NCBI GenBank assembly: GCA_020061125.1
Contig: JAGUYV010000338.1
Coordinates: 1-6,449 of the forward strand
Direction of reading: 5' to 3'
Length of the DNA stretch: 6,449 bases
From: a bacterium
GTDB taxonomy: Bacteria; UBP15; UBA6099; DSWB01
Both the position numbers and the translations under genes were made by a program. The notes beneath the pieces are model-generated. The model did no database searches. It worked only from the letters and a program-made list of their open reading frames with translations, and was not told the DNA's origin. Shown one piece after another: positions 402-6,449 of the stretch; position 1 is the stretch's first letter, and each line of letters opens with the position of its first letter.

Positions 402-1289
402 TTACTTTTTTCCGCGCTTTTTCTTCTTCTTGCTTTGCGCGGCGGCCTGTGTGGCCGGGGCCGCCGCGGCGGATTGCGCGCCGTTCTTGCCTTTGGCGCC
501 GGATTTGTTCTGCTCTTTTGCCGGAACGGGTTTGCCCGCGGCCGCGGCCGGCGGAGTCATGGGTCCGGTGAACTTCTGCTGCACGATCTGGAACAGGTTG
601 CCCAGCACCCAGTACAGAAGCACGCCCGAGGGCATGATCGCGGCGAAGTAGATGAGCATGAGATTCATCATCATCATCATGCCCTTCTGGTTCGGGTCCA
701 CGATCATCTGTTTCTGCTGAATGATGGTAGTGACGGCCATGCCCGCGGCCAGAATCAGCGTGGGCAGGTACAGATAAGTGTTCTGGAGGAAGCCGATGTT
801 TGTGATGGACAGGTCAATCATGCCCGGCATGGCCAGGGTCATGCCGCGCAGAAACGCGGGCGGGATGCGCGTGACCGCAGCAGTGGTGAGGTCCATGCCG
901 TAAAACGACGAATTCACCAGAATGAATCCGTTGAGTTCCGGGGTGTTCAACACGCGGAACAGCAGGATGAAAATGGGAAGCTGCAGCAGCAGGGGCAGGC
1001 ACCCGCCCATGGGGTTGGCCCCGTGCTCCTTGAACAATTCCATCTGCTTCTTGGCCAGGGCTTCGCGGTCGTTCTTGTACTTCTCCTGCAGCTCCTTCAT
1101 TTTGGGCTGCAGCTCCTGCATGGCCTTCATGCTCTTGATGCTCTTGAAGGTGAGCGGCAGGATGAGGACGCGGAAAATGAGGGTGAGCAGGATAATGCTC
1201 CACCCGTAGTTGTGCGTCACATTTTCGTTGAGGAAAATGAGGGAATTGACAATGAAGTTGGTCGCGCCGTTAACGATGTTTTGCCACAT
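402..1289 (-). CDS. yidC: YidC/Oxa1-type membrane protein insertase, short form
   Basis: YidC inserts and folds inner-membrane proteins, alone or with SecYEG. This 295-residue protein starts directly with a short amphipathic segment and TM1 at about 30-47. It lacks the large periplasmic domain of proteobacterial YidC. TM1 carries the groove arginine R40 (LIFRVLILPL). The cytoplasmic helical hairpin follows (about 50-92, KMKELQEKYKND), then NPMGGCLP leading into TM2 (about 98-118), TM3 at about 172-190, TM4 at about 205-220 with five consecutive Met, and TM5 at about 222-238. The tail from about 242 is Pro/Ala/Lys-rich and ends KKKKKRGKK. Such basic tails contact ribosomes in Oxa1 and some short-form YidCs; here that is inference. 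No strong ribosome binding site precedes the ATG, only a weak GGAT. The gene lies 48 bases after yidD and is probably in the rpmH operon. Confidence 0.96.
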   Translation of the reverse strand: MWQNIVNGATNFIVNSLIFLNENVTHNYGWSIILLTLIFRVLILPLTFKSIKSMKAMQELQPKMKELQEKYKNDREALAKKQMELFKEHGANPMGGCLPLLLQLPIFILLFRVLNTPELNGFILVNSSFYGMDLTTAAVTRIPPAFLRGMTLAMPGMIDLSITNIGFLQNTYLYLPTLILAAGMAVTTIIQQKQMIVDPNQKGMMMMMNLMLIYFAAIMPSGVLLYWVLGNLFQIVQQKFTGPMTPPAAAAGKPVPAKEQNKSGAKGKNGAQSAAAAPATQAAAQSKKKKKRGKK

Positions 1290-1337: not shown

Positions 1338-1550
1338 TTACGGGACCGGGTCGAAGCCGCCCTTGTTGAAAGGGTTGCAGCGAAGAACGCGCCAGACGGA
1401 CAGGCCCGTGCCGCGCACGAAGCCGTGCTTGCGGTAGGCTTCCAGGGCATACTGCGAGCACGAAGGGGTGAAGCGGCAGGCGCTCGGCAGGATGCGCGAC
1501 AGGGTCAACTGGTAGAGCCTGATGGCTGCGATGGCGGCTTTGGCGAGCAT
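1338..1550 (-). CDS. yidD: YidD membrane protein insertion efficiency factor
   Basis: A 70-residue protein with the full YidD signature: an amphipathic N-terminal helix ([17 protein letters not shown]), then CRFTPSCSQYALEAYRKHG with its three cysteines when the later CNPF is counted, then GLSVWRVLRCNPFNKGGFDPVP to the stop. YidD is a small inner-membrane-associated protein that assists YidC-dependent insertion. The chosen ATG at 1550 begins exactly at the family's usual N-terminus. An open frame extends 30 codons upstream but shows no YidD similarity. The start lies 46 bases inside the end of rnpA, a common arrangement suggesting translational coupling; no strong ribosome binding site is seen. 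Length and motifs are normal. Confidence 0.95.
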   Translation of the reverse strand: MLAKAAIAAIRLYQLTLSRILPSACRFTPSCSQYALEAYRKHGFVRGTGLSVWRVLRCNPFNKGGFDPVP

Positions 1551-1945
1551 TGTGAACCGTCGGCGAACTTTCGCAGGAGCGAAGCGGCTTCGCGGTGCGC
1601 GTGCCGGGCGGCCTCCTCGGTGATCGGGCCTTTCCAGCACAGCGCCATGTCAAAGGGCATGGCCCTGACATTTGGCGCGAGGCGGGCTTCCTCCTTGAGA
1701 ATTCTTCGGATGCGGTTGCGTTTGACCGCATTCCCGCAGCGGCGCGGCACCACAAGAGCCAGGCGCGCGCCGCCCGGCGCCCCCGTGGCCTCGTACACCA
1801 GTGTCAGGTGCCTGTCGCGCATGCGGCGTCCTGTGCGCAGCAATTGCCCGATGGCCCGGCTGCTGGTGATGGCCGGCAGGGGCGTGCGCCGCTCACACGT
1901 TGGTGAGCCGTTTGCGTCCCTTGGCCCGGCGGTTGTTGATGACAC
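1505..1945 (-). CDS. rnpA: Ribonuclease P protein component (start uncertain)
   Basis: RnpA is the protein cofactor of RNase P, which removes the 5' leader of pre-tRNAs. The diagnostic core is clear: [16 protein letters not shown], then [27 protein letters not shown] with the RNR motif, ILKEEARL and FDMALCWKG. The conserved region begins around base 1879, 13 bases after the rpmH stop. Between that stop and the core there is no ATG, GTG or TTG in this frame. Canonical starts are either too late (TTG 1843, ATG 1822, both losing conserved N-terminal residues) or inside rpmH. The inner ones are GTG 1945, with AAGGG 8 bases upstream, and ATG 1984. I use GTG 1945, giving 146 residues against a usual 110-130. 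A CTG at 1879 is the non-standard alternative. The 3' end overlaps yidD by 46 bases. Confidence 0.92.
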
Positions 1946-2030
1946 GCCTTCCGCCCTTGCTGGACATGCGCTTGCGGAATCCATGCTCCCGGACCCGCCT
2001 GCGGTTTCTCGGTCGGTAACTCGGTTTCAT
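1893..2030 (-). CDS. rpmH: 50S ribosomal protein L34
   Basis: A 45-residue, very basic protein with the L34 pattern: [28 protein letters not shown], and RRAKGRKRL near the C-terminus. L34 is a small protein of the large ribosomal subunit. The ATG at 2030 is preceded by GGGAG at 2041-2045, 10 bases upstream. The frame is open further upstream to 2114, but those codons show no L34 similarity. It is the first gene of the leftward cluster and has its own likely promoter at 2120-2148. The rnpA frame is open across nearly all of this gene, beginning just after an out-of-frame TGA formed by the rpmH start (ATGA). Confidence 0.97.
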
Positions 2031-2290: not shown

Positions 2291-2299
2291 TGGTATAAT
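2291..2299 (+). promoter_or_regulatory. Extended -10 promoter for the secreted-protein gene
   Basis: TGGTATAAT matches the extended -10 form TGnTATAAT perfectly. No good -35 box lies 16-18 bases upstream, which extended -10 promoters can tolerate. Transcription would start near 2306 and give a leader of about 76 bases. The in-frame ATG at 2298 overlaps this -10 box, so it cannot be the start on a transcript from this promoter; that favours the downstream start at 2382. Confidence 0.6.
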
Positions 2300-2381
2300 G
2301 CCCGGGAATAAAGGACCGGAGCTTACAGTTGCGCTGCGCTCAAATCAAGCTGCAAACGCCAGTATTGTGCCGGAGTCTATG

Positions 2382-3446
2382 ATGAGCAATAACAATATTC
2401 GTTTGGGTGCAATCGTCTTTCTATTGGCAATGCATCTGTTTTTTTTGTGCTCAACAAATGCGAAAGCAATCACGCATCCTGAAACCCCGCCAATAATTCC
2501 GATCTTCGTTAATCAAACGGAAATCATGATCATCGAACAGGAAGAAATGGGATCAAACATTGCCAGAACAATCCCGGCTCATCATGTTTGCGTCCGCCTG
2601 CTTGAGATCAAGGAAGAACCCTTCAGCGGTTTGCTTTGTTTGGCAAATTGGCTTGGCGCTGCTGATGATATTTGGTTGTTAAAAAATGACAAACACACGG
2701 GCACAAAACTCTCTGTTTATTACACAGGCTATAGATTGAGTGATGTTTTTCCAGAAAGAGCTCTTGGTTTGCATCATTTTTTTTATGAATCTAACAATAC
2801 ATTACTGAATAATCTAAAAATCAACAAGCTTGAACATAGTGTTAATAATGGCATTTTAACCATATCCATATCGTTGTCATTTATGAGATCTCTTCGTGTA
2901 TTCAAAGACCAGCTTATCGACGGCGTAATAAACATTAACCTTAATGACATTTTATTGGATACTGACATTGACGGTCTCACGGATTTAGCTGAAAAGAAAA
3001 TCGGCACATCATCAATAAACAAGGATAGCGATCAAGATGGTATTGTAGATACGCATGACAATAATCCATTAACAGCACTCGGCAACGACAAGCCGCGTTG
3101 CGCGCTTTACGAAGAAGCAATAAGTGCAATTATTACCGAAATGAAAATCATCGATTTGCCGATACCTGTTGCCGTTATACGGTTGGATGGAAAAACGGCA
3201 TGCTCATTTGAGCTGTTTCAATCAATTGTTCTCACCACAAATTTACCTTTTAGCGCTTTTTTTCCCAAATCTGGATACGACACCTTTGTTTTTATTGGTA
3301 TAGATAAAATTGAAATTGAAAAAAATTCAATTTTATCAATAAGAGCATTTATTTCAGCAACGGGCAAAATGAGAGGATTATATGATCTCCTGTTTGCCAA
3401 AGATAATGGCAAATGGTCGTTAAAGAAGCGCCATCGTTTTCATTAA
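2382..3446 (+). CDS. Secreted protein of unknown function with two TSP3-type calcium-binding loops
   Basis: The gene encodes 354 residues from the ATG at 2382, with GGAG 6 bases upstream; the ATG at 2379 is possible but leaves only 3 bases. Residues 1-29 form a signal peptide: polar N-region with one Arg, a hydrophobic core (IVFLLAMHLFFL), and an NAKA cleavage site. C23 does not fit a good lipobox. Residues 30-190 are a region I do not recognise. At about 193-204 (DTDIDGLTDLAE) and 215-226 (DSDQDGIVDTHD, then NNP) are two thrombospondin-type-3/EF-hand-like loops, which in known families bind calcium. The remaining 125 residues look strand-rich, end in GKWSLKKRHRFH and are also unrecognised. 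The gene is AT-rich (22 of 60 G/C at 2701-2760), unlike all its neighbours, and has its own promoter. Acquisition by transfer is likely. Function is unknown; an extracytoplasmic location is inferred. Confidence 0.85.
   Translation: MSNNNIRLGAIVFLLAMHLFFLCSTNAKAITHPETPPIIPIFVNQTEIMIIEQEEMGSNIARTIPAHHVCVRLLEIKEEPFSGLLCLANWLGAADDIWLLKNDKHTGTKLSVYYTGYRLSDVFPERALGLHHFFYESNNTLLNNLKINKLEHSVNNGILTISISLSFMRSLRVFKDQLIDGVININLNDILLDTDIDGLTDLAEKKIGTSSINKDSDQDGIVDTHDNNPLTALGNDKPRCALYEEAISAIITEMKIIDLPIPVAVIRLDGKTACSFELFQSIVLTTNLPFSAFFPKSGYDTFVFIGIDKIEIEKNSILSIRAFISATGKMRGLYDLLFAKDNGKWSLKKRHRFH
3303..3337 (+). repeat. 12-base perfect inverted repeat inside the secreted-protein gene
   Basis: GATAAAATTGAA at 3303-3314 and TTCAATTTTATC at 3326-3337 are exact reverse complements around an 11-base A-rich loop. 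The repeat lies within the coding sequence (residues around DKIEIEKNSILS). It could form a hairpin in DNA or mRNA. In sequence this AT-rich it may also be fortuitous. Confidence 0.5.
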
Positions 3447-4654: not shown

Positions 4655-6449
4655 TTATGAACCCTGGGCGGAGAATTGCTTTTCGGAGATTTTGAACAGG
4701 AGCGCGGCGAACAGAAACGCGAATCCCGCGGCCGGGGCGCTCGCGGCATATCCCAGAAACGCCACAAGCCACTGGAACAGGTACATGCCGGCCAGTGCGC
4801 CGAACAGCATGAGGCCCAGAGCGCGGGGCCGTGCGCTCTCGCTCACACGATCGAGCGCGCCCATCCAGAACACCGCGGCGAGAAACATCACGGCCCATGC
4901 GAGCAGGCTCGTCAGTCCCAGGGACAACGCGCCGGATTCCAGAGCCTTCAGCGCGGGGATCATCAGAAGCGCGGCCAGCGCCGTGTGCTTCGTGCGCCTG
5001 GCCATGGCGGCGCGCGGAACCGCGAGGAATGCGGCGAACCCGAGCGCGCAGATTACGCCCAGCCACACCATGCCGTACGCCGGGCCGCCGGGATACAGCC
5101 GCGCGATGCGCGAGTGCAGATAGGTCTCGGCCAGGCCCGCGCCCAGCCCCGCGAACCAGCAGCAGGTGGCGATGCGTCCCCTTCCGGCAACAAACGCCGC
5201 GCCCCATTTCCCTATCGAGCGGATCAGGTACTGCGCGAGAAAGCCCGCCAGGGCGAGGACAAGGAAGGTGCACAGCGCGCGCGTGCCGTGCGTCATGGGA
5301 ACCTTGTGGACCAGGACCTCGCCCATGTTGCCGGAGAAGAAGATCAGATAAAGCAGGAGCAGCACGGCGGCGTACCACGCGGCGTATGCGGGCCGCACGG
5401 GCATGCGCCACGGCTCACGGAACCCGGCGTGCGCCGTGGCCGCAACGAGCACAATGAAGAACGGGAGCATGAGCACCAGCAGGCCAGGGGCCAGGGGCTT
5501 GTGGTGGATGGGCCGGTTTTCTCCGAACCGCGCGGCCGCGGCCTGGCGCGCGTCAATTTTCACCTCGCGCACTGTGGGCATCTGCAGCATGCGCTCCGCG
5601 ATGCGGTCGAGTTGCGCTTTGTCCCGCGACGCCACCACATAGAACAGCGGCAGGCCGCTAAGCGGAAACTCGCCAATCCAGATGTGGAATGCGCGCACAC
5701 TCACGCCCTCGGGGATGTTCGCCAGCATGGGATACACTTCGTCCTCCATGCTGGATCCCCAGTCTATGACAAAGACCCCGCCGGGCGCCAGGAGCCTGTT
5801 GAAGATGTCGCTGTAATTCTCTCTGGCGGTGAGGTAATCCTCCTGCAGGAACACGCTGCGGGGCATGTTGAACAGGCGGATGCCGATGCCGTTCTGGAAG
5901 ATGAGATCGTACTGTTTGCCCGCGTCCGCGCGCGCGCGGATGGCCTGGCGCAGGTCCGCGGTTTCCACGCTCATGCCGGGGCGCTGGAACACGCGGCCGT
6001 TGTATTCCGCGTAACGGCCCGCCATGAGCCGCGGAACCACGGGATCGAATTCCACGGACTCGAATGTGCGGAACCGCGGGTTGGCGTCAAGGAGCATGCC
6101 CGCGTACAGGCCGTCCGTGCGCCCGGCCAGAAGCACGCGCTCCCTGCCCCGCGCCAGCTCGGCCATCAGGCGCCGCATCTCCGTGGGATAATGCTCCACG
6201 CTGTCGCACGCGTACCAGATCATGATGGTGTTGTACACGCCGCCCACGCACCGGCCGTCCTTGAACGAGATGAAGTCCAGCCGGTAGTACGGCGTCCAGT
6301 GCGTGGACATGTTGGTGTATTCGTCAATGCGCCACACATAAAAGGATTCGTTTTTGTTGTGAGCCGAGGTCCAGGCCGCGGCGCCGCACAGGAGCAGCCC
6401 GATGAGGGCCGCGCGCCGGTGCGGAAGCAGGAACGCCACCACCGCGCAC
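4655..6449 (-). CDS. Membrane protein with a spermidine-synthase-like domain (5' end beyond the window)
   Basis: The frame is open to the right edge; a GTG at 6442 is the first possible start, but the gene probably begins outside. Numbering from that GTG (595 residues): one hydrophobic helix (about 11-25), a spermidine-synthase/SAM-fold domain (about 45-300), then eight or nine predicted membrane helices between about 319 and 584. The fold is supported by PYYRLDF, RVLLAGRTDG (glycine loop 102-111), VEFD (130-133, ribose-binding acidic residue), KQYDLIFQNG and LLAPGGVFVIDWG. In true spermidine synthases the segment after YDVII carries the catalytic aspartates (DxxD); here it reads NGIG at 184-187, so aminopropyl transfer is unlikely. 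Similar membrane-anchored spermidine-synthase-like proteins occur in many bacteria with unknown role. It precedes the GT9 gene on the same strand by 80 bases, separated by a probable terminator. Confidence 0.82.
   Translation of the reverse strand, partial: CAVVAFLLPHRRAALIGLLLCGAAAWTSAHNKNESFYVWRIDEYTNMSTHWTPYYRLDFISFKDGRCVGGVYNTIMIWYACDSVEHYPTEMRRLMAELARGRERVLLAGRTDGLYAGMLLDANPRFRTFESVEFDPVVPRLMAGRYAEYNGRVFQRPGMSVETADLRQAIRARADAGKQYDLIFQNGIGIRLFNMPRSVFLQEDYLTARENYSDIFNRLLAPGGVFVIDWGSSMEDEVYPMLANIPEGVSVRAFHIWIGEFPLSGLPLFYVVASRDKAQLDRIAERMLQMPTVREVKIDARQAAAARFGENRPIHHKPLAPGLLVLMLPFFIVLVAATAHAGFREPWRMPVRPAYAAWYAAVLLLLYLIFFSGNMGEVLVHKVPMTHGTRALCTFLVLALAGFLAQYLIRSIGKWGAAFVAGRGRIATCCWFAGLGAGLAETYLHSRIARLYPGGPAYGMVWLGVICALGFAAFLAVPRAAMARRTKHTALAALLMIPALKALESGALSLGLTSLLAWAVMFLAAVFWMGALDRVSESARPRALGLMLFGALAGMYLFQWLVAFLGYAASAPAAGFAFLFAALLFKISEKQFSAQGS

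Follow-up and report, generated by a model that had tools for sequence, protein, structure and literature searches.

In Thermus, the gene for ribosomal protein L34, rpmH, is wholly nested within rnpA, the gene for the RNase P protein, in another reading frame, and two AUG codons (AUGGAUG) share one initiation site (Feltens et al. 2003, as recounted in PMC9841429). In that account, the rnpA-rpmH overlap of Thermus is termed the sole described case. Short stop-start overlaps of rpmH and rnpA, of up to about 20 nt, are found in several of the bacterial lineages surveyed here.

The rpmH-rnpA junction

The window analysed here is a stretch of 6,449 nucleotides, the entire contig of a draft genome of candidate phylum UBP15 in 513 contigs, with the assembly 79% complete. 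On its minus strand, rpmH, rnpA, yidD, yidC and jag follow one another in the usual bacterial order and belong to the same protein families as in ordinary bacteria, but rnpA, unlike in the ordinary arrangement, has no start codon after rpmH. The evidence below suggests that rnpA most probably begins inside rpmH, with a tail encoded by rpmH and a normal RnpA fold after it. The features of the region are listed here.

1893..2030, minus strand: rpmH, ribosomal protein L34, 45 aa (PF00468, 66.5 bits; TIGR01030 above cut-off)
1505..1945, minus strand: rnpA, RNase P protein, 146 aa from the favoured GTG (PF00825; AlphaFold2 model resembles solved RnpA structures)
1565..1867, minus strand: conserved RnpA domain, Pfam positions 8-108
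1893..1945, minus strand: putative out-of-phase overlap of rpmH and rnpA, 53 nt
2027..2029, minus strand: rnpA-frame TGA overlapping the rpmH start codon (ATGA), excluding enclosure of rpmH
1338..1550, minus strand: yidD (TIGR00278, 81.9 bits), its ATG within the 3' end of rnpA
1289..402, minus strand: yidC
from 243, minus strand: jag, incomplete

The rnpA frame is +1 relative to rpmH and ends at a stop at 1505 on the minus strand. As an earlier note on this DNA had stated, this frame lacks ATG, GTG and TTG from the rpmH stop (1893) to the RnpA fold, and the first canonical start past the rpmH stop is a TTG located 49 nt downstream, within helix 1 of the fold. Upstream of the rpmH stop, the frame is open back to the TGA at 2029..2027 and contains solely GTG 1945 and ATG 1984 as canonical starts, which the note had also located correctly, together with the AAGGG 8 nt before the GTG. 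The overlap is 53 nt when counted from GTG 1945 and 92 nt when counted from ATG 1984. At its other end, rnpA shares 46 nt with yidD (1505-1550), so rnpA overlaps both neighbours.

As in Thermus, rnpA and rpmH of UBP15 overlap out of frame and rpmH DNA would encode part of RnpA. Unlike in Thermus, rnpA of the window would start within the final two fifths of rpmH, and the TGA across the rpmH start codon bars nesting. The window is a partial out-of-phase overlap, not one of the Thermus type, and the description "as in Thermus" in the earlier note does not hold. Short stop-start overlaps also place the rnpA start inside the end of rpmH, but the UBP15 overlap is longer (41-53 nt) and would add roughly 10-17 residues to the canonical N-terminus.

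Conservation of the junction in UBP15

Seven UBP15 genomes were compared, the window and six relatives (G001-G006) from three genera in two other families; the sample is thin, and four of the seven (G002, G003, G004 and G006) belong to one genus, g3. In all seven, rpmH is immediately followed by rnpA in the +1 frame, and six of them, including five of the six relatives, have no canonical rnpA start past the rpmH stop. The exception, G005, has a possible TTG start with a Shine-Dalgarno (SD) sequence 10 nt past the rpmH stop, the only candidate among the relatives for a normal start just after rpmH. The earlier note had named such a start as evidence against its proposal, but in G005 the internal ATG is retained as well.

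An ATG inside rpmH was observed at one homologous place in all six relatives; it precedes the rpmH stop by 41 nt, or by 44 nt in G005, where L34 is one residue longer. It arises from AAT GC. (Asn-Ala) of rpmH, and the share of AAT among Asn codons in these genomes is 0.23-0.37. The window has lost this ATG and has ACA at the homologous place (1936..1934), because its L34 has Asn-Asn there; GTG 1945 is located 9 nt upstream. The proposal of the earlier note that rnpA starts inside rpmH is thereby supported by the relatives it had asked to be compared, with the internal ATG conserved in 6/6 and the window itself departing from them in codon and position. Its claim of an almost completely open frame within rpmH is true of the window and does not extend to the relatives, whose rnpA frames are closed by stops 44-68 nt upstream of the rpmH stop codon; the internal ATG is separated from such a stop by one codon or none in G001 and G005. 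This openness was dropped as evidence, since the frames of the relatives are closed upstream.

In genus g3, the internal ATG is the sole canonical rnpA start. Codon lists, and for G002 a near-cognate scan, further showed no CTG, ATT, ATC or ATA between the internal ATG and the conserved core in G002, G003 and G006, while G004 has one additional CTG in this interval. The internal ATG being the sole canonical or near-cognate codon in these three genomes, rnpA of genus g3 therefore starts within rpmH, unless a still rarer codon is used.

For the chance expectation, rpmH was recoded synonymously at each genome's own codon usage in 20,000 trials. By chance, a +1 tail that is open and holds at least one canonical start was expected at 0.39 in the window, 0.14 in G002, 0.39 in G001 and 0.20 in G005, and such a tail was observed in 4/4 genus-level lineages. 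The joint probability is about 0.004 if the lineages are independent; this value and the AAT usage figures are weakened by their shared descent and are indicative only, as is the apparent excess of such tails over chance in UBP15.

Candidate start codons and Shine-Dalgarno signals

The codons and signals considered for initiation of rnpA in the window are as follows.

1943..1945, minus strand: GTG, favoured rnpA start inside rpmH, 9 nt upstream of the ATG place of the relatives in the codon alignment
1982..1984, minus strand: ATG, alternative rnpA start inside rpmH, in frame; absent from the relatives, whose frames are closed there
1877..1879, minus strand: CTG, rival near-cognate start after rpmH, with a weak SD and not conserved
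1954..1958, minus strand: AAGGG, possible SD of GTG 1945, 8 nt before it

If rnpA starts inside rpmH, GTG 1945 is the likelier start in the window and ATG 1984 the less likely one. The best anti-SD pairing was -6.8 kcal/mol ahead of GTG 1945 and -6.3 kcal/mol ahead of ATG 1984, compared with -7.3 kcal/mol ahead of the rpmH ATG and a background median of about -3 at random sites; ahead of CTG 1879, it was -2.5 kcal/mol, weaker than the background median. The internal ATGs of the relatives had weak pairing (-4.7 and -3.2), and that of G005 reached -10.7 but at a spacing of 13 nt. SD pairing gives mixed support, with a fair value for GTG 1945 and weak ones for the ATG of the relatives, and these energies discriminate poorly. 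Folding of the overlap mRNA compared with shuffled sequences showed nothing special (z 0.65).

RnpA and its probable extra N-terminus

The RnpA of the window matched PF00825 with 54 bits (cut-off 22.3) and scored 31.3 against the NCBIfam equivalog TIGR00188, below the cut-off of 38.35. In a profile of the seven UBP15 RnpAs, position 13 aligns to residue 3 of T. maritima RnpA, for which structures are solved, so the canonical N-terminus would fall near the rpmH stop. When modelled with AlphaFold2 from GTG 1945, RnpA had a mean pLDDT of 77.9 and a pTM of 0.67, with residues 1-19 below pLDDT 50 and a folded core after them, and the top Foldseek matches of the model were all RnpA (E 1e-7 to 5e-4). 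The rpmH-encoded extra residues would number about 17 from GTG 1945 or 30 from ATG 1984; the 22-35 given in the earlier note had been counted from CTG 1879. The extra stretch of about 17 residues is predicted to be disordered.

RNase P RNA was detected in five of the seven UBP15 genomes and not in the 79%-complete assembly of the window, in which rnpA is single-copy, so rnpA should be translated. We propose that rpmH and rnpA are carried on one shared mRNA and read in different frames, with the ribosome initiating RnpA independently inside the rpmH coding sequence. The resulting RnpA would consist of the tail encoded out of frame by rpmH and the normal fold directly past the rpmH stop, and initiation within a translated gene may keep RnpA scarce relative to L34.

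Alternative explanations

Initiation of RnpA could instead use a near-cognate codon located at the rpmH stop or past it, such as CTG 1879 or an ACG or ATC nearby, in which case RnpA would carry no rpmH-encoded tail. The N-terminus from CTG 1879 would be nearly normal, and AUU or CUG is apparently used for rnpA in other lineages, but no such codon is conserved in the relatives, the near-cognate codons listed above are missing from G002, G003 and G006, and the SD pairing of CTG 1879 is poor. We regard this as unlikely. The conserved junction and internal ATG of the relatives argue against both the CTG 1879 start and a sequencing error, the two alternatives that the earlier note had raised. Loss of a normal rnpA start codon through a sequencing or assembly error is conceivable in a draft genome in so many contigs, but the same absence after rpmH recurs in five separately assembled relatives and both frames are intact, which leaves it very improbable.

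A +1 ribosomal frameshift at the rpmH end, yielding an L34-RnpA fusion, fits the position of rnpA in the +1 frame and abutting rpmH; it is slightly less probable still, as the codon ahead of the TGA varies (GTG, GTC or GTA), inspection of the junctions of the window and relatives showed no prfB-like CUU-UGA slip site, and a proper ATG is present in the relatives. The least credible explanation is nesting of the Thermus type, with rnpA starting at or before the rpmH start and a single initiation site for both, which the almost complete openness of the frame in the window would allow but which is blocked by the TGA at 2029..2027 and by the stops within rpmH in the relatives. The sequence alone refutes it, barring an error in that TGA. 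The candidate starts inside rpmH are 46 and 85 nt away from the rpmH ATG, and no single SD is shared.

Rivals aside, we favour initiation of rnpA within rpmH.

Survey of other bacteria

We surveyed 119 loci with rpmH beside rnpA in diverse genomes, a set biased to strong PF00825 matches. In 93/119 loci, a canonical rnpA start either follows rpmH or overlaps the rpmH stop by no more than 4 nt; in 11 loci, canonical starts were found only inside rpmH, 5 had them solely at the rpmH start or farther upstream, and 10 had none. Near-cognate starts may serve in many loci of the last two classes.

In Desulfovibrionales (L008 and L144-L173; the order of G029), an ATT in the rnpA frame was located 13 nt before the rpmH stop in 27 of 32 loci, and in most of them what comes next resembles an ordinary RnpA N-terminus, such as M-S-R-L-T-F-P. 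The ATT was retained even in several G+C-rich loci in which TTA makes up 0-2% of leucine codons. Of the five loci that lack it, three carry rnpA in a different frame that has a canonical start. This ATT has the appearance of an AUU start of rnpA conserved inside rpmH. Within the collection of papers searched, none on an AUU start of rnpA was found.

Because the only starts found coincided with the rpmH start or lay upstream of it, Thermus-like enclosure was initially suspected in three loci. It was rejected for L008 (G029) and L048, a Nitrospirae metagenome-assembled genome (MAG), as an ATT inside rpmH fits better in both. It may hold in the third, L046, a MAG of Desulfovibrionaceae: its rpmH start reads ATGCATG, no stop interrupts the rnpA frame, and the ATT at -13 is missing. 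Of all surveyed loci, it most resembles the Thermus AUGNAUG site.

Other candidates were found in smaller groups. In family f23 and its kin (L117, L138, L200 and L020), an ATT 7 nt before the rpmH stop overlaps the rpmH end (CC-ATT-TTA-A or similar), with no canonical rnpA start except a late TTG in L020, and is a second candidate AUU start. In family f106 (L186, L203 and L221), a CTG 4 nt before the rpmH stop and overlapping it (CTGA) is the sole shared start-like codon for rnpA and a candidate CUG start. In L109 (WOR-3), the rnpA frame has no ATG, GTG or TTG from a stop inside rpmH to the RnpA core.

The data suggest that members of an entire candidate phylum begin rnpA within rpmH and that other bacteria do so too, in arrangements unlike that of Thermus. 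If this is true, RnpA in these groups may be truncated or given a wrong start by automatic annotation, and it becomes testable whether a ribosomal protein and a tRNA-processing enzyme are coupled at translation start. Initiation factor IF3 limits initiation of infC. Tentatively, an rnpA start inside rpmH might be a recurrent, independently evolved device holding RnpA below L34. An internal ATG or GTG would serve in UBP15; in Desulfovibrionales it would be the conserved AUU, the use of which IF3 could be expected to restrict.

Other open reading frames in the window

The window contains two further long open reading frames. One, at 4655-6442, encodes 595 aa with apparent membrane segments and matched nothing in Pfam or NCBIfam at E 0.01. 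The other, at 2298-3446, encodes 382 aa without a Pfam match, is AT-rich (about 38% GC, compared with 58-69% in the flanking genes) and contains Asp-rich repeats like DTDIDGLTD and DSDQDGIVD; it was possibly acquired.
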